NCBI GenBank assembly: GCA_902812415.1
Contig: CADDZJ010000032.1
Location: forward strand, 1-38,497
DNA length: 38,497 bases
Origin: Acidobacteriota bacterium
Lineage (GTDB): Bacteria > Acidobacteriota > Terriglobia > UBA7540
Direction of reading: 5' to 3'
The notes under the pieces are model-generated. The model did not search any database, was not told where the DNA came from, and saw only the letters and a program-made list of their open reading frames with translations. Shown one piece after another: positions 15,930 to 38,497 of the stretch (position 1 is the first letter of the stretch; each line of letters starts with the position of its first letter). Made by a program: the position numbers and the translations under genes.

Positions 15930-18900
15930 ATGTCGAAGGAATGCAGAGTAAAACGATTGGGGATTGTTTCGTGCAGCATTGCAGCTCTCTTGCTCTCGAG
16001 CGTGTTCTGCCGGGCGCAATTGACCACTACGGGAACCATTACCGGCACGGTCACAGACACCAGCAGGGCGGTGGTGCCTGGCGCTGAAGTTGCGATCATC
16101 AATGAAGGCACCCACGTGCAGACAACCACTCGAACCAATGCGGATGGAAGCTTCGCGGTTCCCGGCCTGACAATCGGCAACTATACCGTAAAGGTTACGA
16201 AACAGGGATTCCAAACCTATACGGAAACCGGCATCACTCTGCACCCGGCGCAGGTGGTCAGCGTGAACCCGGTCATGAAAATCGGTCTCGTGACCACGCA
16301 GGTTCAGGTGACGGCCAGCGCGGCCCAGGTGCAGACAGCGACACCAGAAGTTTCAAGCGAAGTCTCCGAGCGGCAGGTTGTAACACTTCCTCTGAATGGC
16401 AGGAATTATCAGAGTCTCTCGGCACTGATGCCAGGCGTCACGAATTTAAGTCCCGATACGGCTCAGAATCAGGGTGGATTCCTCACCTCGAACGTCATGT
16501 CCATCAATGGCCAGGGGCAAAGCGGCACGATGTATTACCTGGACGGAATCTGGAATATGAACACCGGGAATATGACCCAGACCACAATCACGCCCAACCC
16601 GGATACCATTCAAGAGGTAAGAGTCCTGCAAAATAATTATGGCGTTCAATACAGCCTGATGGGCGCAAACGTGGTTCTGCTCGAAACCAAGAGCGGGACG
16701 GACACCTTCCATGCCACCGCTTTCGAGTATCTGAGAAACGATGCTTTGGATGCCCGCAATTTCTTCAGCCCCACCGTCTCACCCCTGAAGCAGAATATTT
16801 TTGGTTACACGTTCGGCGGGCCCTTCTACATTCCTCATCATTACAACACCGACAAGAGCAAGACATTTTTCTTCTGGAGTCAGCAATGGGTGCGGCAGCA
16901 CATTGCGTCCGTGCTGCGCGGAGCCGATCCCACGGCGGATATGCGGAACGGCCTTTTCCCGTCATCCACCCCTCTGACCAACCCCCTCACCGGGCAACCT
17001 TTTCCGCAAGCTTCCCCGGGGGTCTACCAGATTCCCCAGGGCATGCTCAATTCCAGTTCTCTGGCGTTTCTGAACGCTCTCGAGCCGCTGCCCAATAATC
17101 CCAGCGGCGGATTTCTGAATTATCTTAACCTCACGCCTGCGATCAACACTCAGCGCGACGACCAGATTAAGGTCGATCAGAATTTCAAACAGAAACTGCA
17201 CCTGATGGCCGAATATCTGGACGAGCGGCAAACCAACGGCAATCCGAACGACACCTTCTTGGGCTCGCCCTTCAGCACCAACAGCAACCCGGTCTTCACC
17301 AATAATCAGTTGGCTCAGATTCAACTGACGCAGACTCTCTCGCCTTCGATGGTGAACACCACCAGCGTTGCTATGAATAATTACGTCGTGAGTCTGGCGG
17401 CCAAAGGCGTTTACCAACGAAGCCAGATTCCGGGATTTCAGGAAGTCCTTCCTTTCCCTAACGGCTTCGGCTCCGACCGCCTGCCGCAGATCAATATGTC
17501 GGGCGGCTGGCCAGGCATGGGTTGGGCATACACTTTGCCTCTTGATCATGCCAGCGATCTTGAAAACACGTTGGATGATGACTGGAGTTGGCTGCGAGGA
17601 AATCACTACCTGCAGGCGGGCGCGCAGTTTGTGAAAGGCACCAAACGCCAGACCGCCTTTGCGGATAGCAACGGCCAATGGTTCTTTACCGGCAAGTTCA
17701 CGGGCAACTCCATGGCGGATTTCCTGCTTGGCGACGCTTCCTCCTTTACACAGGCCAGCACCGAAGCACGCCCTTACGTTCACTACCCGATTTTCTCGCC
17801 TTATGTTCAGGATCGCTGGAAGGCCACTCGCCGCCTGACGTTCACCGTGGGCCTGCGCTTCAACTTTCTGCCCGCCACTCACGCCCAACGCGGCTACATT
17901 ACGATTTTTGATCCGGCCAAGTACAATCCGGCTCAAGCGCCCATTGTGAACCCCGACGGAACGATTACTCCAACCCCCAACTTCAACCCGCTCAACGGGC
18001 TGATTTTCAACGGAGAGGGTGGATTCCCGCTGAACTTTTCAAGCGCTCACCAGTACGATTGGGGTCCCTCCGCTGGTTTCGCCTGGGATGTGTTTGGAGA
18101 CGGCAAGACTTCATTGCGCGGCGGATACGGCATCACTTATACGCGCGTGCCTACCGGAACAGATTGCAGCTATTTCTGCGGGATTAACTATCCACGAGTG
18201 ACATCGCTCACCCTGATTAATCCAAGTTTCCCGAATCCCACCGGAGCAGCCGCGGCCCCTGCGAGCGTTCAAACCATCGATAGCCAGGACCTTAATCTTT
18301 ATCCCGCCGCCCAGGTTCAAAGCTACAGCCTGAGCATGGAACATCAGTTTGCAGGAAACTGGTTTGCCTCCATCGCCGGCGCAGGGAACGTGGCGCATCA
18401 TATCGGAACGTACTACGACATCAATCAACCTCTCCCTGACCCGCCTTTCGACTTCAATCCCATCATTAATACAGGCACAGTGCTGTCGCAGATCTTCTCC
18501 CCCTATCAGGGCTACGGGTCAATTACCACCAACGTCAGCCCGGCCAGCTCTTTCTGGGACGCGCTGGAGATTAACGTGCGCCATCCGGTAGGTCACAATC
18601 TCTTCTTCAGCGCGGCGTATACCTGGGAGCATTCGCTTTCAACGGAAAGAGGCACGGTGTTCTTCGAGAATTCCAACACCATGCAGGATATCTACCATCC
18701 CCGGAACAATTATGGCACGACGAATCTGAACGTCCCTCAAATTCTGACCATCAGCGCCATCTGGAATCTGCCTTGGTTTCAAAACGCGCATGGCTTGAAA
18801 GGATTTGCGTTGGGCGGATGGCAGTATTCCGATATTACGACGATCCAAAGCGGATTCAACCAAGATCCCGGCCTGAGCATTGCAAATCAAGGGCTGGCGA

Positions 18901-19238
18901 CCCGTCCCGACCGCATTGCCAGCACGATTACAGGTCCGAAGACCGTGCAGCAGTGGTTTAATACCGGAGCCTTCGCGGCGCCTCCGCCTGGATTTTTCGG
19001 CAATGCCGCTGTCGGTTCGATTATGGGCCCGGGCACGGTCAACTTCGATATGGCGCTTTATAAGGATTTCCACTTCGCCGAACGCCACACGATTGAATTT
19101 CGGAGCGAGTTCTTCAATATTTTCAATCACACCAATTTCAATGGTATCGATCCAACTTTTGGGAGTGGCACCTATGGCCAGGTGACAAGCGCAGCGGATC
19201 CCCGGATCATTGAATTTGCGTTGCGCTACCAGTTTTAA
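15930..19238 (+). CDS. TonB-dependent receptor with N-terminal carboxypeptidase-regulatory-like domain
   Basis: This is an outer-membrane receptor of the Oar/CarboxypepD_reg-like type common in Acidobacteria, 1102 residues. The start at ATG 15930 is fixed by GAGGAGG nine bases upstream and by the signal peptide (about residues 8-29, ending CRAQ); an upstream in-frame start adds 57 unlikely residues. After the signal comes a beta-sandwich (about 35-115; GTITGTVTDTSRAVVPGAEV, ADGSFAVPGL), then a plug domain with LPLNGRNYQSLSALMPGV and a long beta-barrel ending EFALRYQF, with the terminal Phe needed for barrel assembly. No SusD follows. As first gene of the plus-strand sugar locus it probably imports its oligosaccharide. 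Confidence 0.9.
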   Translation: MSKECRVKRLGIVSCSIAALLLSSVFCRAQLTTTGTITGTVTDTSRAVVPGAEVAIINEGTHVQTTTRTNADGSFAVPGLTIGNYTVKVTKQGFQTYTETGITLHPAQVVSVNPVMKIGLVTTQVQVTASAAQVQTATPEVSSEVSERQVVTLPLNGRNYQSLSALMPGVTNLSPDTAQNQGGFLTSNVMSINGQGQSGTMYYLDGIWNMNTGNMTQTTITPNPDTIQEVRVLQNNYGVQYSLMGANVVLLETKSGTDTFHATAFEYLRNDALDARNFFSPTVSPLKQNIFGYTFGGPFYIPHHYNTDKSKTFFFWSQQWVRQHIASVLRGADPTADMRNGLFPSSTPLTNPLTGQPFPQASPGVYQIPQGMLNSSSLAFLNALEPLPNNPSGGFLNYLNLTPAINTQRDDQIKVDQNFKQKLHLMAEYLDERQTNGNPNDTFLGSPFSTNSNPVFTNNQLAQIQLTQTLSPSMVNTTSVAMNNYVVSLAAKGVYQRSQIPGFQEVLPFPNGFGSDRLPQINMSGGWPGMGWAYTLPLDHASDLENTLDDDWSWLRGNHYLQAGAQFVKGTKRQTAFADSNGQWFFTGKFTGNSMADFLLGDASSFTQASTEARPYVHYPIFSPYVQDRWKATRRLTFTVGLRFNFLPATHAQRGYITIFDPAKYNPAQAPIVNPDGTITPTPNFNPLNGLIFNGEGGFPLNFSSAHQYDWGPSAGFAWDVFGDGKTSLRGGYGITYTRVPTGTDCSYFCGINYPRVTSLTLINPSFPNPTGAAAAPASVQTIDSQDLNLYPAAQVQSYSLSMEHQFAGNWFASIAGAGNVAHHIGTYYDINQPLPDPPFDFNPIINTGTVLSQIFSPYQGYGSITTNVSPASSFWDALEINVRHPVGHNLFFSAAYTWEHSLSTERGTVFFENSNTMQDIYHPRNNYGTTNLNVPQILTISAIWNLPWFQNAHGLKGFALGGWQYSDITTIQSGFNQDPGLSIANQGLATRPDRIASTITGPKTVQQWFNTGAFAAPPPGFFGNAAVGSIMGPGTVNFDMALYKDFHFAERHTIEFRSEFFNIFNHTNFNGIDPTFGSGTYGQVTSAADPRIIEFALRYQF

Positions 19239-19324
19239 ATAAATTGCTGCGAAACTCTGGATGTCAACTCAGGATAGACTCCGCAAAGAATCCTAATCAC
19301 ACTGATGAGTGATAAGTGAGAAGG

Positions 19325-19429
19325 TGTGAAAAAATTAATCCGCGCCGTTGTAGCGGCGAACGATGTTCGCCGAAGTTTTTGAAAAAAACCGGCGATCGCA
19401 GATCGCCGCTACAATGAGATTTTTTCACA
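19325..19429. repeat. Cruciform repeat with nested hairpins (TGTAGCGGCG type), copy 1
   Basis: Outer arms TGTGAAAAAAT (19325-19335) and ATTTTTTCACA (19419-19429) are perfect complements. Inside, TGTAGCGGCGA (19349-19359) pairs with TCGCCGCTACA (19403-19413). Two small hairpins, GGCGAAC-gat-GTTCGCC and GGCGATC-gca-GATCGCC, lie within. The element fills part of the 371-base gap between the receptor and the first GH78 gene and could end transcription in both directions. A second copy is at 25092. Confidence 0.75.
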
Positions 19430-19435
19430 ATTTCT

Positions 19436-19496
19436 GACGAGTGACGAGCAAGAGCAACCAGAATTTCGGATCGATTTTTGCCCATCACTCGTCACT
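19436..19496. repeat. 62-bp repeat upstream of first GH78 gene, copy 1
   Basis: This 61-base stretch aligns with 22163-22224 at about 85% identity with one gap. It contains the shared string AGCAACCAGAA and similar ends. AGTGACGAG near the left end is the complement of CTCGTCACT at the right end, so each copy is an inverted repeat. It ends 113 bases before the GH78 start codon. Confidence 0.7.
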
Positions 19497-19609
19497 GTTC
19501 CTGCGGCTCCCTCGGAATGACAATCTGGATGAGTCTTTCGGCAACCGGCTAACGGCGTCACCCCGCCACTGATTTCACACCGCCCATCATCTATCCAAGG
19601 AGGGGCTGC

Positions 19610-22120
19610 ATGCAAAAGCGATTTTTGATTCTGAATTCTTTGTTATTTTTCTTCCTGATGGCGTTTAATCTCTCAGGCCAGACGGCTCAGAGCATCTACA
19701 GCCCCAGTCCTTTAGACCTCACTGGCCAGATTCAATCACCCAGGCTCGAATCGCAGTTGCACCATCCGCTGCCTGAACAATACATCTGGGCGCCGGCACG
19801 TCAGAGGACTCCTGTCGAATTCTGGAATCCCCTTGCCGGAAATACCCCGCAATGGGTTTATTTTCGCCGGAGCTTTGATCTCACGAGCGTCCCAAACGCG
19901 GCCACGCTTTATGCAGCGGGCCCCGCCCGTATGCGCGTCTATCTGAACGGCAAGCTCCTGGCCAACGCCCGGCAGGATTTGGGAGCCAAAATCCATCCTT
20001 ATGTTCTGGTTCTCGATGTGAGTTCGTCGCTGCACGCCGGCCACAACGTGCTTGCCCTGGCTGTCGCCAATGGACGGCGGCTGGCTGTGAAAATTGTGCC
20101 CCGAGCAGAAGAAGTGAACGGGCCGGCCATTCTCATGAGCGGCAGCGGCTGGAAGTGCAGCACTGAAGAGCAAAGCGGATGGGAGCAACCAGAGTTCAGC
20201 GAGAACGGCTGGCAGGACGCGGCAGCGCTGGGAGGAATCGAAAGCAGTATCAATTTCTTCCAGGCAAATCAGGACGCAGGGATGTATCGCTGGCCCGGCT
20301 ATGACGGCATCTCTCCATTCCTGGCTCGCGTGCCGGTTCGGGCGGCGGCAACGCTCGATATTTTCCCCGGGTTAGGCGCTTTTCACAATACTGAAGCGCT
20401 CGCGGCCAAAGGAGATCAGCTCAGCGCCGCTCCATCAGGTGACTTCACAGTGGATCTGCCCCCGACAAATGCGCTTGAAACCGAATATCCCAGCCTGGTT
20501 CTTGATTTTGGGCGTGAATCCACGGGGCGGCTCGAAGTGGTCTCAGACTCAGATGCGCCGATGCGACTGGCCATCCAATACGGCGAATCACTGGGCGAGA
20601 CATTGCAGGAACCCTATCTGGGCGTCGATGAACTTGACGTTCCGCCCCACGCGACTGCCTACGGCCCCAAAAGCGCTTTCCGTTACGCCAAGGTAACTTT
20701 CCTTAGCGGCTCTTCGCCATTGCGCTTCAAAACCATCCAGCTTGATGACATCTATTATCCGGTCGATTATCGCGGGTCGTTTGAGTCATCCGACCCGCTT
20801 CTCAACCGCATCTGGCAGTTGGGCGCCTACACCAGCCACCTCTGCATGCAGGATGACATCTGGGACGCTCCCAAGCGCGACCGGGCGCGGTGGATGGGCG
20901 ACCTGGACGTAAGCGGGCACGTGATTGACGCCGTCTTTGCCGACCACTTCCTGATGCAAGAAACCATGAACGCCCTGATCCGCGACGCAGGCCAGCCGGT
21001 CGATCGCGATGTGAATCACATTCCGGGCTACTCCGCCTTCTGGGTGATGGGCGAAGCGGATTATTACGAGCATTTCGGCGACCTCAACTATTTGCGCTCC
21101 ATCCATCAACCGCTCGTTCAGCTTCTCAACTACATGGCGAGCGAGCTTGATGACCGAAACGTTTTCACGAATCGTCATCACGCCTGGCCTTACGTCGATT
21201 GGTCGCCAGGCATGGCTCCTTCGTTTCTCTCGATCGGAACACGCCCACTCAGCGAAACAGCGCCCAACGCCCAGCGCGGCACGCAATTTGAGTTTTACGC
21301 CGCCTTCGAGCGAGGCGCGTGGCTGCTGCGGCAATTAGGGGATTCGGCCCATGCGGAGCGCTTCGAGTCAAAGGCCCAAGCAATCCGTCGCGCGGCGCTT
21401 CAGTCCATGCTCGATCCGCAAACGGGAACCTTTGGCGACCGCTGGCAGCCGAATGCCATGGCCATTTACTCGGGTCTTGCGGACGAGAGCCAAACGCAGA
21501 CCATCTGGCAGAAAGTGCTCTCCCATCCCGATGAGTTTCGCATCACACCCTACTATAATTTTTACGTCATCTCTGCGATGGCCTTGGCAAGCCAGTACAA
21601 GCCCGCCCTGGATTGGATTCGCCAGTATTGGGGCGGAATGGTGCGGCGTGGAGCAACCAGCACGTGGGAGGCGTATGAGTTGGGGCTGCCCAAACAAGGG
21701 TGGCACCGGATGCTGCGCGCCGACTTTGGCCAGGGATATTTTGTGAGCCTGGCGCACGGCTGGTCGAGTGGCCCGACAATCTGGCTCATGGAGGAGATTC
21801 TGGGAATCAAGCCCACAGCTCCCGGATTCAGGCAGGTTGCGATTCGTCCGGAGCTTGCCGGACTCGCGTGGGCCCGCGGAACCGAACCGACGCCGCGCGG
21901 CCTGATCCGAGTGGACTACCGCGCTGCTTCTGGCGGCGGCTTGACCGCTGCCATCGATTTGCCGCCCGGCGCTCACGCGGCAGTTTCCATGCCGGTCACT
22001 CCGGGTGAAACCACGATTCAAGTAAACGGCCGCGCGGAGTCCGGCGCTTCAACAGAAAACGGCCAGCGGGCCATCATCCATCTGGATCATGCCGGGCATT
22101 ACACACTGGTATCAAAGTAG
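19610..22120 (+). CDS. GH78-like alpha-L-rhamnosidase, Sec-exported
   Basis: This is a probable periplasmic alpha-L-rhamnosidase of 836 residues. The ATG at 19610 follows AAGGAGGGG; a Sec signal peptide spans about residues 1-24. N-terminal beta-sandwich domains (FRRSFDL, RMRVYLNGKLLAN, LDFGRESTGRLEV) precede a six-hairpin catalytic domain from about residue 390 (SSDPLLNRIWQLGAYTSHL). The motif DAPKRDRARWMGD gives Asp419, Asp424 and Asp431; the middle one is Glu in classical GH78 enzymes. Glu687 in TSTWEAY is the likely base. The C-terminal sandwich ends the protein (GWSSGPTIWLMEEILGIKP and on). A related unsaturated-uronyl or other hexosidase activity cannot be excluded. Confidence 0.85.
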   Translation: MQKRFLILNSLLFFFLMAFNLSGQTAQSIYSPSPLDLTGQIQSPRLESQLHHPLPEQYIWAPARQRTPVEFWNPLAGNTPQWVYFRRSFDLTSVPNAATLYAAGPARMRVYLNGKLLANARQDLGAKIHPYVLVLDVSSSLHAGHNVLALAVANGRRLAVKIVPRAEEVNGPAILMSGSGWKCSTEEQSGWEQPEFSENGWQDAAALGGIESSINFFQANQDAGMYRWPGYDGISPFLARVPVRAAATLDIFPGLGAFHNTEALAAKGDQLSAAPSGDFTVDLPPTNALETEYPSLVLDFGRESTGRLEVVSDSDAPMRLAIQYGESLGETLQEPYLGVDELDVPPHATAYGPKSAFRYAKVTFLSGSSPLRFKTIQLDDIYYPVDYRGSFESSDPLLNRIWQLGAYTSHLCMQDDIWDAPKRDRARWMGDLDVSGHVIDAVFADHFLMQETMNALIRDAGQPVDRDVNHIPGYSAFWVMGEADYYEHFGDLNYLRSIHQPLVQLLNYMASELDDRNVFTNRHHAWPYVDWSPGMAPSFLSIGTRPLSETAPNAQRGTQFEFYAAFERGAWLLRQLGDSAHAERFESKAQAIRRAALQSMLDPQTGTFGDRWQPNAMAIYSGLADESQTQTIWQKVLSHPDEFRITPYYNFYVISAMALASQYKPALDWIRQYWGGMVRRGATSTWEAYELGLPKQGWHRMLRADFGQGYFVSLAHGWSSGPTIWLMEEILGIKPTAPGFRQVAIRPELAGLAWARGTEPTPRGLIRVDYRAASGGGLTAAIDLPPGAHAAVSMPVTPGETTIQVNGRAESGASTENGQRAIIHLDHAGHYTLVSK

Positions 22121-33914: not shown

Positions 33915-36900
33915 GTGAATAAGATCACACGCCGTAGTTTTCTTGAAATCAGCGCCGTTGGATTCGGAGGGCTGGCCATCGACCCTCGATGGCCTGCACT
34001 CGGGCAGAGTGAAAACCCGGCGAGCGGCTTCGAGGCGCTCTATAACCAGTTCAAAAATCCCGACCGGCGCTACAGCATTCGACCCTTCTGGTTCTGGAAT
34101 GGCAAGTTGGAAGGCGCGGAACTGCGACGGCAGATCAAGCAGATGGTCGACCACGGCGTTTACGGGGCCTATACCCATAACCGCGACGGACTCCAGACGC
34201 CTTATCTCTCGGAAGCCTGGTGGGAAGCGGTGGGCGAGGCGCTCAAAGCGGCGCGAGATTACGGCTTCTCACTCTGCATGGTGGACGAATTCGAGTGGCC
34301 AAGCGGCGAGGCGCGGGACTACTGGCTGCCGGGCATCAACAAAAGCCGCGTGGTGGCGGCTAATCCGGATTTCCACATGCATCGGCTGCGCCCGACAGAA
34401 ACCGTCATTCAGGGTCCGCGATCAATCCGCATTCCGTTGCCTTCCCGGACAGCCGCAGTCGTGGTGGCGCGTCGAACAGGCCGGGAAGCGCTCGATGGCG
34501 ATCGTCTGAAAACTCTGCCCTTCGAGCCAGGAGCCAAAGAACTGGAGTGGAGCGCTCCGGAGGGCGAATGGGTGGTGTTCACTTACAGCATCGAGCGCGC
34601 CATGGGGCAACCTGACCACGGCCATGTCGATCTGATGAGCCGCGAAGCCATCGCCAAGTACATCGAAATCTATTACGAAGAATTCTACCGCCGCTATGGA
34701 GAATACTTTGGCAACGCCATGCCGGCCACTTTTGCGGACCACGAAGGGGATTATGGAGCCAAACTACCCTGGACGCCCCGCCTGTTTGATACCTTCCGTC
34801 GCAAGGCGGGATATTCGCTTGAACCTTATCTGCCCGCTCTCACGTATGACATTGGCCCCAAAACCGAAAAAGTGCGTTGCGATCTGCTTGATACCGTCAG
34901 TGAACTCTACTCCGATAATTTTTTCAAACAGGTCACCGACTGGTGCCATCAGCGCAAGATTCAGCATTCCGGCCACGTTTGGGAAGAGTCTTTATTTTTC
35001 GGGCCTTCCGAGCAGGGAGACTTTTTCCGCATCCTGCGCTCGATGAGTAATCCCGGCTGCGATACGCTGCTTGAATGGGGTCGGCAATCCGTCTGGCTGA
35101 AGGAAGTGGCTTCCGTGGCGGACTTTGAAGGCCGCCATGTGGTGTGTGAGAACCAGGGCGTTCAGGGAACCAATTCCTATCTCAGCCCGGAAGGCATGAA
35201 GCGGGTATCAAACTGTCTCGGCGCATGGAACATCGGTGAATTCATTCCGCATGCTTTTGACTATGATCTTTCCCGCATCAACTTTCCTCCCGACTGGTTT
35301 CGCAGCCAGCCTTATCTGCCGTGGTTTCAAGCCTACGCCGACCAGATGCGGCGCATCAGCTTCATCAACCGCGAAAGCCATCACGTGGCCGATATTCTCC
35401 TCATCTATCCGCAAGTCTCCATCTGGGGGCAATCGGCTCCGGCGTTTCGCAGGGAAGAAACCAGCTATATCCTTAACAACGCTTCCTGGAGCGATGACGC
35501 GGCCGAGACCAATCAACAATATGCAGAACTCAAGCTCCGGCTGAGCGAAGCCCGCCTCGACTACAAAGTGGCGGATGATTATTATCTCGGACGGAGCGCG
35601 CTGGAAGGCCATCGCCTGCGCATTGCTGACTCGCATTTCCACACCTTGATTCTGCCGCCCATGTCCACCATTCGCCGAACCTCCGCCGAGCGTATCCGCG
35701 ATTTCTATCGGGCAGGCGGGACCGTCATTGCGCTCCGGCGCCTGCCCGCCATTTCAGCCGAATCTGGCCGCGATGATCAAACACTCAAGCAGATCTGGGA
35801 TGAAACCTTCGATAGCCGCCCCACGCTGGAAGCGTTCCGGCTGAAACAGAACGCCGCCGGAGGCCGCGCTTATTTCGTGCCTGGATCAGTAGTGGATTTA
35901 ATAGGGCTTCTGAAACAGACCATCACCGATCCTGATGTTAACGTGGAAGAAGGCCCTACGGACCACCTTTACGCGCTGCACAAGATCAAGCAAGGGATTC
36001 ATCTTTATTGGGTGGTTAACGACACGGCCGAACCGCGCGCGAACTTATTGTCATTCCGGGCTACAGGCCGTCCCGAGCGCTGGGATGCGCACACGGCGCA
36101 GCGCTCTCCACTCTTTTATCAGACCCAGGGCCAGCGCACACGGGTCCGTCTGTCCCTGGGGCCTTGGGACGCAGCCTATATTACCTTTGACCCTTCCGGC
36201 CCCGCCCAGCCTCTGGCGCTTGAATCCACCAATCTGGGTGATTTCTATATTGTTAGTGTAACAAGCGAAGAGGTGACGATCCGCGCGAAAGGGATGGAAC
36301 ATGGTTTCGCTGTTCTAAGCAATGGCGCGAGATCCTATCGGGGTGAATATACACCTCGCGGTTCGGAGCCGCTTGAAATTACAGGAGAATGGAAAGTAAC
36401 GGTTGAAGGCAACTCCATAACCCTGCCTTACGCCCTGGCCCTGGATGATCCCGATGACCGCGGCATGCGCGAACGCTGGTATCTGAATCCAAAGGGCCGG
36501 CTTGAATGGAACCCCTTATGGCTCTCGCCCATGAACTGTTCCATCCGTGAGTGGAATGTGATGGGACCCTTTCCCAATCCTGGAGATCGCGGGCTGGAGG
36601 AACATTATCCACCGGAGGAGAACGCCGATTACGAAGCTGTCTATCGAGGCGAAGGCGGACGGGAGCTTCGCTGGCTGCGGATGAATGCCGCTGACTATCA
36701 TGCGGGTGCCGAGCCCGGCGGCTGGAACCTGGGCACCTTGGTGATCAGCGGAGGACCTTACGACGACCAGAGTTTTATCGTGAACTATGGAGCACCTTTG
36801 CGGCTCTCGCCGCTGGAAGGAACCGTCTACGCGCAGACGAATGTTTACAGCCCCGAAGATTCTGAAGCAGTTCTCATCCTGGCCACTCCCAATCCCCGGG

Positions 36901-37766
36901 CGGTTTTCCTTAACGGGCATCAGGTTTATTCCCGCTGGCTCCGCCCGCTTTATAACGAATTGACGGATGGCTTTGCCACACGCATCCCTATCCGTTTGCA
37001 AACCGGCTGGAACAGCCTGCTTTTGAAATTCCTCCATAATTCTGAGAACCCCGCGGCGCCACATTTTACCTGCCGCATTGAGCGGGCTGACGGAGGTCCC
37101 ATAGAAGGGCTTCTGGCCTCCTGCCGGTCTTTTAACCACCCGGAGCAGAATGTCAGGAGCGGATACCGCTGGTTGCGATTCCCGGTTCCCGCAGTCGCGG
37201 GCGCATTAAAAGCGCCAGCAATGAAGCATTCCTGGCTGGCTTTCGTCGATGACAAGTCTGTGGGCGCAACTTCTGAAATTCCGTTGCCAAAGGGAACACA
37301 AGCGGTGACGCTTCGCGTTTCCGCGAAGGAAATTCTTCAATCTCCCTTTGCCTTTTCCACGGTTTCGGCCTCACTGCCTTTGGGAACGTGGAAAACGCCC
37401 GGACTGGAACATTTCTCCGGTCGGATGATTTACGAGAAAGAAGTAACCGTCCCCAGCCAGCTTCTTGCGGAACGACTTCTGCTGGACTGCGGAAAGGTTG
37501 GCGTGGTCGCGGAGGCTTGGGTGAACGGGCGTTCGGTGGGGTCAAGAGCATGGTCGCCCTATGTTTTCGATGTCACAGACCACATCCATCCTGGGCCGAA
37601 TCATCTGAAAGTTCGTGTGGCCAATACAGCAGCGAACGCGCGGGCGGTGGGAGAATCCCACGATATCCTTCAGAATATTGACTTGGATGGCTGGCTGGGC
37701 CCGGCGCGTCTTGTGCCATATTTTGACCGAGAGATTCGCTGCCGACGAACTGAAGACGGTGCTTGA
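33915..37766 (+). CDS. GH106-type alpha-L-rhamnosidase, Tat-exported
   Basis: A 1283-residue exported glycoside hydrolase. The start is GTG 33915, eight bases after GGGAG; the ATG overlapping it is followed at once by a stop. The N-terminus MNKITRRSFLEISAVGFGG is a twin-arginine signal. The GH106 barrel follows: RPFWFWNGKLEGAELRRQI, YGAYTHNRDGLQTPYLSEAWW, MVDEFEWPSGEARD (residues 122-135), ADHEGDYGAKLPWTPRLF and KIQHSGHVWEES. The C-terminus (about 1150-1260; YEKEVTVPSQ, AEAWVNGRSVG, HIHPGPNHLKVRVANTAAN) is a GH2-type galactose-binding-like domain. Known members remove alpha-L-rhamnose from rhamnogalacturonan and other glycans. It follows an A+T-rich control region and is probably transcribed on its own. 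Confidence 0.85.
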   Translation: MNKITRRSFLEISAVGFGGLAIDPRWPALGQSENPASGFEALYNQFKNPDRRYSIRPFWFWNGKLEGAELRRQIKQMVDHGVYGAYTHNRDGLQTPYLSEAWWEAVGEALKAARDYGFSLCMVDEFEWPSGEARDYWLPGINKSRVVAANPDFHMHRLRPTETVIQGPRSIRIPLPSRTAAVVVARRTGREALDGDRLKTLPFEPGAKELEWSAPEGEWVVFTYSIERAMGQPDHGHVDLMSREAIAKYIEIYYEEFYRRYGEYFGNAMPATFADHEGDYGAKLPWTPRLFDTFRRKAGYSLEPYLPALTYDIGPKTEKVRCDLLDTVSELYSDNFFKQVTDWCHQRKIQHSGHVWEESLFFGPSEQGDFFRILRSMSNPGCDTLLEWGRQSVWLKEVASVADFEGRHVVCENQGVQGTNSYLSPEGMKRVSNCLGAWNIGEFIPHAFDYDLSRINFPPDWFRSQPYLPWFQAYADQMRRISFINRESHHVADILLIYPQVSIWGQSAPAFRREETSYILNNASWSDDAAETNQQYAELKLRLSEARLDYKVADDYYLGRSALEGHRLRIADSHFHTLILPPMSTIRRTSAERIRDFYRAGGTVIALRRLPAISAESGRDDQTLKQIWDETFDSRPTLEAFRLKQNAAGGRAYFVPGSVVDLIGLLKQTITDPDVNVEEGPTDHLYALHKIKQGIHLYWVVNDTAEPRANLLSFRATGRPERWDAHTAQRSPLFYQTQGQRTRVRLSLGPWDAAYITFDPSGPAQPLALESTNLGDFYIVSVTSEEVTIRAKGMEHGFAVLSNGARSYRGEYTPRGSEPLEITGEWKVTVEGNSITLPYALALDDPDDRGMRERWYLNPKGRLEWNPLWLSPMNCSIREWNVMGPFPNPGDRGLEEHYPPEENADYEAVYRGEGGRELRWLRMNAADYHAGAEPGGWNLGTLVISGGPYDDQSFIVNYGAPLRLSPLEGTVYAQTNVYSPEDSEAVLILATPNPRAVFLNGHQVYSRWLRPLYNELTDGFATRIPIRLQTGWNSLLLKFLHNSENPAAPHFTCRIERADGGPIEGLLASCRSFNHPEQNVRSGYRWLRFPVPAVAGALKAPAMKHSWLAFVDDKSVGATSEIPLPKGTQAVTLRVSAKEILQSPFAFSTVSASLPLGTWKTPGLEHFSGRMIYEKEVTVPSQLLAERLLLDCGKVGVVAEAWVNGRSVGSRAWSPYVFDVTDHIHPGPNHLKVRVANTAANARAVGESHDILQNIDLDGWLGPARLVPYFDREIRCRRTEDGA

Positions 37767-37954
37767 TGCCCCAATCCGTATTCACTGCCTCAATCGGTGT
37801 CCGTTACATCTTTGTCGTCCCTGGCAACCGCCAAGGTCTCGCGCAAACTAGACCAAGTCTACACCAACCCCACGAACACAACAGGCTGACATGTCGTCCC
37901 CAAAGGTGTATCCATTTATAACAATCTTCGTACCTCACATAAGAAGGGCTACTC

Positions 37955-38302
37955 ATGGGTAGAATGTTACGATCCACGAGCTCATGGTTAGCCATTCGGC
38001 CGAGAGTCCAGCGGTCACGCCTCCTACTCTATCTGTCCTGCCTGATGATGGCTGCACTTCTAGGCTTGGTGGCTGGTGCACGGGCGGCTCGTGCACAGAC
38101 TGGGTGCTCGGCTGGGTGCAACGGTGGGACAGGTCAAGCCGGGAACGTATATGTGTGTGTCTGCGAACCTGACTGTTCCGCATGCGGAGGCGACGCATGC
38201 GAGACGTGTCAAGGTTCGTGTGGCACCTTCTATTTTAGCTTTTGCGTTTCACCGAGATGGTGTGGGTTTTTCCCCGCATGCTTTGGTGGCGGGTGCGCGT
38301 AA
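37955..38302 (+). CDS. Small exported cysteine-rich protein
   Basis: I do not recognise a family. The 115-residue product has a basic N-terminal region, a hydrophobic stretch (about residues 23-41) and a likely signal-peptidase site after ARA at residue 47. The mature part of about 68 residues has 13 cysteines, at 51, 55, 68, 70, 74, 77, 82, 85, 89, 97, 103, 109 and 114. It is otherwise rich in Gly, Ala and aromatic residues. The ATG at 37955 follows AGAAGGG. TATAAC at 37917-37922 may be a -10 element, with no clear -35. A disulfide-rich extracellular protein, a metal binder or the precursor of a modified peptide are all possible. Confidence 0.65.
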   Translation: MGRMLRSTSSWLAIRPRVQRSRLLLYLSCLMMAALLGLVAGARAARAQTGCSAGCNGGTGQAGNVYVCVCEPDCSACGGDACETCQGSCGTFYFSFCVSPRWCGFFPACFGGGCA

Positions 38303-38424
38303 GGGCCGGCAACTTAGTGATAGGGTCAGCTGCGTTTTTCAGTATGCCAAGAAAGGGGTGCGTACTGGAGAGCCGGCCATCGAGAGGGATGAGGGTTCCA
38401 GCCAGGCTTATGAGAGGTTAAACC

Positions 38425-38497
38425 ATGAAAAACATTAGCAGGATTGTTGTGGGAGTCACGCTGATCGCCGGGGTCACCGTGGCTGCTTATAAGTTAG
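38425..38497 (+). CDS. Exported or membrane protein, N-terminal fragment
   Basis: The first 24 codons of a gene cut by the right edge. The ATG at 38425 follows GAGAGG at eight bases. The product begins MKNISRIVVGVTLIAG and continues hydrophobic, so it has a signal peptide or membrane anchor. It lies 122 bases after the cysteine-rich gene on the same strand, which suggests a shared transcript. The short Lys-Asn start and helix resemble leaders of small secreted peptides as well as ordinary exported proteins; nothing more can be said. Confidence 0.55.
   Translation, partial: MKNISRIVVGVTLIAGVTVAAYKL

Follow-up and report, generated by a model that had tools for sequence, protein, structure and literature searches.

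A cysteine-rich exported peptide and a predicted LolA-fold protein form an apparently undescribed two-gene cassette in Acidobacteriota

Exported gene products at the end of the contig

The window analysed here (38,497 nucleotides) spans contig C32 from end to end, the draft genome measuring 4.84 Mb, and its right end carries a complete gene, termed gene A, followed by the beginning of another one, termed gene B (Table 1). The original prediction had placed there an exported peptide with 13 cysteines in a mature part of 68 residues, and its open reading frame, ribosome binding site, signal peptide and cysteine spacings (CxC, Cx3C, Cx2C, Cx4C, Cx2C, Cx3C) were all confirmed.

Table 1. Location of genes A and B and of their features in the window
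Feature	Position	Strand	Basis
Putative ribosome binding site of gene A (AAGAAGGG)	37941..37948	+	Sequence; precedes ATG
Gene A, exported Cys-rich peptide, 115 aa, TAA stop	37955..38302	+	Homologues; alignment; profile E-value 5e-19, from an 18-row profile that includes the window sequence
Signal peptide of gene A, residues 1-47, ending in ARA before Q48	37955..38095	+	Sequence; alignment of homologous leaders; predicted helix 20-44
Mature peptide of gene A, 68 residues (48-115), 13 Cys, 10 in conserved positions	38096..38299	+	Cys alignment; predicted strands
Putative ribosome binding site of gene B (GAGAGG)	38412..38417	+	Sequence
Gene B, first 24 codons, export leader or signal anchor, cut by the contig end	38425..38497	+	Position and leader character as in complete A-B pairs

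The leader of A associates a basic N-region, a hydrophobic core and a cleavage motif of the ARA/Q form, as in Sec-type signal peptides, and contains one additional cysteine (C29). The cysteines of the mature part (C51, 55, 68, 70, 74, 77, 82, 85, 89, 97, 103, 109 and 114) represent 19% of its residues. A structure model (pLDDT 75) displays strands at residues 65-71, 81-87 and 92-98 and no helix in the mature part; a fold search of the PDB with this moderately confident model gave no significant match (best Z 3.2), and A likewise matches no PDB sequence. Across the members of the family the net charge ranges from 0 to -12, making these peptides acidic. The gene directly upstream of A (window 33915-37766) encodes a protein of 1283 aa with a Tat-like leader (TRRSFLEISAVGFGGLAI), which in our reading presumably resembles a large secreted glycoside hydrolase.

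The frame opening at 38425 begins with MKNISRIVVGVTLIAGVTVAAYKL; the fragment is too short for a homology test and, by its position, is the start of the LolA-fold gene B described below. The missing end of this gene was sought at the other contig ends of the genome and not found. The second exported product announced by the original prediction thus retains its exported start, and what follows would be, by position, not a short peptide but a protein of some 255 residues with a LolA fold.

Conservation of gene A and its linkage to gene B

A search covering 101 genomes, the source genome and 100 of its relatives, returned matches to A in five other genomes together with a second copy in the source genome (best E-value 2.8e-11). 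One of these five matches (locus L006, genome G023) overlaps an unrelated ORF of 141 aa, does not present the cysteine pattern and was set aside; those of the remaining four genomes have the pattern in common. A first scan of the contigs with A revealed no relative. A later profile search identified four copies in the source genome (on contigs C30 and C32, and two on C79). Profile matches occur in 7/39 genomes of the family to which the source belongs and in 14/237 genomes of another family.

The alignment defines ten conserved cysteine columns, corresponding to C55, 70, 77, 82, 85, 89, 97, 103, 109 and 114 of the window peptide, the least strict being C89 and C114. Most relatives have 10 or 12 cysteines in their mature part, and 17 of the 22 A proteins have an even count (binomial p of about 0.008, relatedness ignored), which favours the presence of disulfides. 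The original prediction had attached a meaning to the odd number of the window peptide (dimer formation, metal binding, thioether or haem-type linkage); it now appears as a local quirk, since its 13 cysteines result from three extras, C51, C68 and C74, which are local to this peptide and lie outside the conserved framework. By hand count, the mature A of locus L035 also has 13.

When exported cysteine-rich ORFs of 70-130 aa were filtered from 0.72 Mb of strand sequence, 17 matches were obtained, all belonging to the gene A family and all standing before gene B or at the end of the window. Moreover, pN was lower than pS in each of the 171 pairs of A compared, most of them saturated, and the closest pair (G002, contigs C154 and C15) shows a pN of 0.05 for a pS of 0.19; the A homologues therefore evolve under purifying selection. 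That gene A could be a chance reading frame without product has a practically negligible probability: it is refuted by the homologues, the conserved cysteine columns, the strict linkage to B and the codon-level selection, and we found no point supporting it.

Each homologue of A is directly followed on the same strand by gene B, and none was found without B, contig ends aside. The conserved cysteine pattern and the constantly adjoining second exported gene that the original prediction proposed to look for are thus both present. The ORFs of 20 neighbourhoods of 6-20 kb, the window not being among them, were compared all-against-all: B is common to 17 of them and every other gene to two at most, A itself being matched above the BLAST threshold only once because it is too short and divergent. 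No radical-SAM, protease, maturation, exporter, sigma/anti-sigma or other regulatory gene is widely common to these neighbourhoods. Only A and B are, and the anticipated nearby genes for maturation, radical-SAM chemistry or export are not a conserved part of the system, nor is a protease gene. The proposal of a secreted disulfide or modified-peptide system is consequently narrowed: the pair is probably a secreted disulfide one, and no conserved maturation gene goes with it. The distances among A proteins and among B proteins are weakly correlated (Mantel r 0.27, p 0.026). A and B form a self-contained exported cassette of two genes.

Predicted fold, distribution and retention of gene B

The proteins of the B family, about 255 aa long, consist of an export leader, ending mostly in xAQ or xSQ, and of one domain with two invariant cysteines (C136, C175) and a motif of the ERSPSE type that is conserved among its members. 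Six of them gave no match at E<=1 in Pfam or NCBIfam, LolA family included, searching PDB sequences with the B profile returned nothing credible, and no homologue of B was found in plasmid, phage and viral collections. The AlphaFold2 model of the homologue from G006 (mean pLDDT 86.8) has LolA and LolB as its top Foldseek matches (LolA chains at E 2e-7), and in VIA-align it matches LolA, LolB, RseB/MucB, VioE and the ependymin-related EPDR1 with Z of about 10 (best Z 11). The domain is therefore confidently predicted to have the LolA/LolB/RseB fold, which by itself gives no function.

The A-B unit has a sporadic occurrence, mainly in the class Terriglobia. Within this class, 92 of 399 sampled genomes have a match to the B profile at E<=1e-3, the weak ones being probably general LolA-like relatives. 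Outside the class, three genomes have matches at E<=1e-15: in G509 and G518 a cysteine-rich ORF that cannot be aligned with A by eye stands directly upstream of B, and in the third the B frame reaches the contig end, so that its upstream side is unreadable. Within the class, more distant B loci (G076, G192, G162b and probably G396_C86) have the same layout, other loci of similar weakness having no cysteine-rich ORF. From these ORFs preceding remote B genes, B appears to partner very diverse cysteine-rich peptides.

Tandem copies of the unit also exist. Contig C79 (loci L007, L019, L023 and L064) harbours two tandem A-B pairs at about 16600-20016 of the record, with promoter-leader regions 98-100% identical over 228 and 163 bp and mature A and B parts that are old paralogues; between the identical blocks, a segment of 130 bp is inverted (94%) in one copy. 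This pattern is that of gene conversion plus inversion, and possibly of an invertible promoter. Between the paralogous pairs of G002 (C154 and C15; L012, L020), pS is lower in gene A (0.19) than in gene B (0.47), which would fit gene conversion having homogenised the A end. At locus L018 (G048, minus strand), a stretch open over 184 codons lies just upstream of the A of a divergent A-B pair; it is built of repeated C-E-x-x-C / C-Q-x-x-C-like units, with 18 cysteines in 70 residues.

At E<=1e-30, 30 B loci could be tested; by hand tally they comprise 18 with an intact A, nine with a lesioned A and three in which A is absent beside a strong B (G057b, G021, G248). The lesions consist of an in-frame TAG (G000_C79b, G221_C65) or TGA (G070, G093), a frameshift (G002_C15, G343, G396) and several lesions together (G186a), that of G394 being uncertain because it is near a contig end. 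The B frame is open beside broken or absent A genes, including the multiply broken one of G186a. For pairs in which at least one copy has no intact A, B dN/dS is 0.24 (G186a/b), 0.16 (G002 C154/C15) and 0.12 (G036/G021), as pairwise averages that include the time before A loss; selection is thus seen on both frames of the cassette. B is thus kept where its peptide gene has been lost, and no A homologue was found without B, as in toxin-immunity pairs.

The TGA codons could also be read as selenocysteine in some copies of a redox-active A. One of them falls on an invariant cysteine column in G070 (L040, 1281-1283), a genome with tRNA-Sec and SelB, and the other beside the first mature cysteine in G093 (L042). 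However, no SelB was detected above the cut-off in G093, no unusual stem-loop follows the TGA of G070 (z of about 0 to 0.8) or occurs in the folded stretch of G093, and decay is the simpler reading since other copies of A are broken by TAG or frameshifts; we consider selenocysteine in A very improbable, G070 being the one copy to which it may still apply. The source genome itself encodes tRNA-Sec (C105:6198-6288, 72.6 bits) and SelB (C87:7705-9594, 372 bits), and this acidobacterium thus probably makes selenoproteins.

Possible roles of the pair and comparison with known systems

Two functional readings dominate, the pair being possibly a weapon with its shield or a cargo with its carrier. Our tentative preference, which we hold possible without calling it probable, goes to B as a resident protective, immunity-like partner of the secreted peptide A. 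In such a scheme, A would be made with its Sec signal peptide, exported and folded, with some five disulfides, as a small acidic peptide, and B, exported by its own leader, would display its LolA/RseB-fold half-barrel in the periplasm or the cell envelope and bind either A or the site of its action. The strict linkage, the limitation of the common genes of the neighbourhoods to A and B and the retention of B when A is lesioned argue for it, as do the B dN/dS, the even cysteine counts, the fold of B, the weak Mantel correlation and the sporadic tandem distribution. It is weakened by the acidity of A, atypical of membrane-active peptides, by the lack of a dedicated exporter and of a receptor-binding part, by the inclusion of the time before A loss in the dN/dS averages, by the weakness of the Mantel correlation and by the uncertain lesion of G394. 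Diversification is common in toxins and, in contrast, the closest A pair is under purifying selection. We know of no immunity protein with a LolA fold.

Somewhat less likely, B would hold the folded A, or a hydrophobic group that it bears, across the periplasm up to the outer membrane or the surface, in the manner of LolA or RseB, and A would then be a surface or matrix peptide and not a weapon. LolA binds the acyl chains of lipoproteins and docks on LolC/LolE, and the periplasmic RseB and MucB bind a peptide partner; LolA and LolB being the top Foldseek matches of B and the peptide-binding RseB/MucB close behind, this role is consistent with the fold, with the strict gene order and coupling, with the acidic, not toxin-like, nature of A and with the purifying selection acting on it. 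On the other hand, A has neither a lipobox nor an obvious hydrophobic ligand, and intact B genes beside a broken or absent A are odd for a dedicated carrier. This retention is better explained if B confers immunity to the peptide than if it only carries it, and we rank the protective role of B first because a carrier devoted to one cargo should become useless once that cargo is gone, while an immunity protein would stay. A third role, which we regard as quite improbable, is that of an envelope sensor, in which A would be a redox- or metal-responsive peptide (at least ten cysteines) whose state is monitored in the periplasm by an RseB-like B. The resemblance of the B fold to RseB/MucB and the dense cysteines of A with CxxC-type spacings agree with it, but no regulatory gene is common to the 20 neighbourhoods, and disulfides are favoured by the even cysteine counts.

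The pair departs from each of the systems to which it can be likened. B has the half-barrel fold (Foldseek E 2e-7, Z of about 10) and the export of LolA/LolB, but it is without Pfam match (E<=1) and its two invariant cysteines and ERSPSE-type motif are peculiar to it; we know of no Lol carrier encoded beside a cysteine-rich peptide. The B domain shares its fold with the N-terminal domain of RseB/MucB (Z 9-10); B, however, ends after this single domain and short helices, without their C-terminal domain, and its neighbourhoods have no sigma/anti-sigma gene in common. The similarity to the NVEALA peptides of Bacteroidota suggested by the original prediction is limited to A being short, exported and cysteine-containing: at E<=1, neither Pfam nor NCBIfam has a profile that matches any of four A proteins, and A differs by its phylum, its far more numerous cysteines and its partner. 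Bacteriocin-type toxin-immunity pairs similarly associate a small exported product with a larger partner, encoded after it and retained when the small one is disrupted; A-B differs in having no known immunity fold of that type and no dedicated export genes, and the toxicity of A is hypothetical. Like A, the bacterial cis-defensins are small secreted disulfide-rich peptides, with three to four disulfides and a helix-plus-sheet (CS-alpha-beta) fold (PMC11561630), whereas A has ten conserved cysteines, is acidic, is modelled with strands and no mature helix (pLDDT only 75) and has no fold match in the PDB. NVEALA, radical-SAM RiPP and known defence or phage families were rejected as relatives, with no profile match and no widely common neighbour gene. 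Two weak PHROG matches (E 0.04-0.14) concern families of unknown function.

A and B each define a new protein family, and together they make up a stand-alone cassette. We found no description of either in the literature, which is weak evidence as open-access papers only were covered, and the gene is apparently undescribed, the paired exported system having been correctly suspected from the outset. In soil, Acidobacteriota rank with the most common bacteria, and little is known of how they interact. With slightly less than an even chance in our estimate, the cassette represents an undescribed disulfide-peptide system of this phylum, engaged in competition or signalling in soil, in which very diverse cysteine-rich peptides have a LolA-fold envelope protein as their dedicated partner, be it an immunity protein or a chaperone. 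If true, a secreted cysteine-rich peptide with a LolA-fold partner would constitute a new use of this fold, and the A family would offer small stable peptides for testing.
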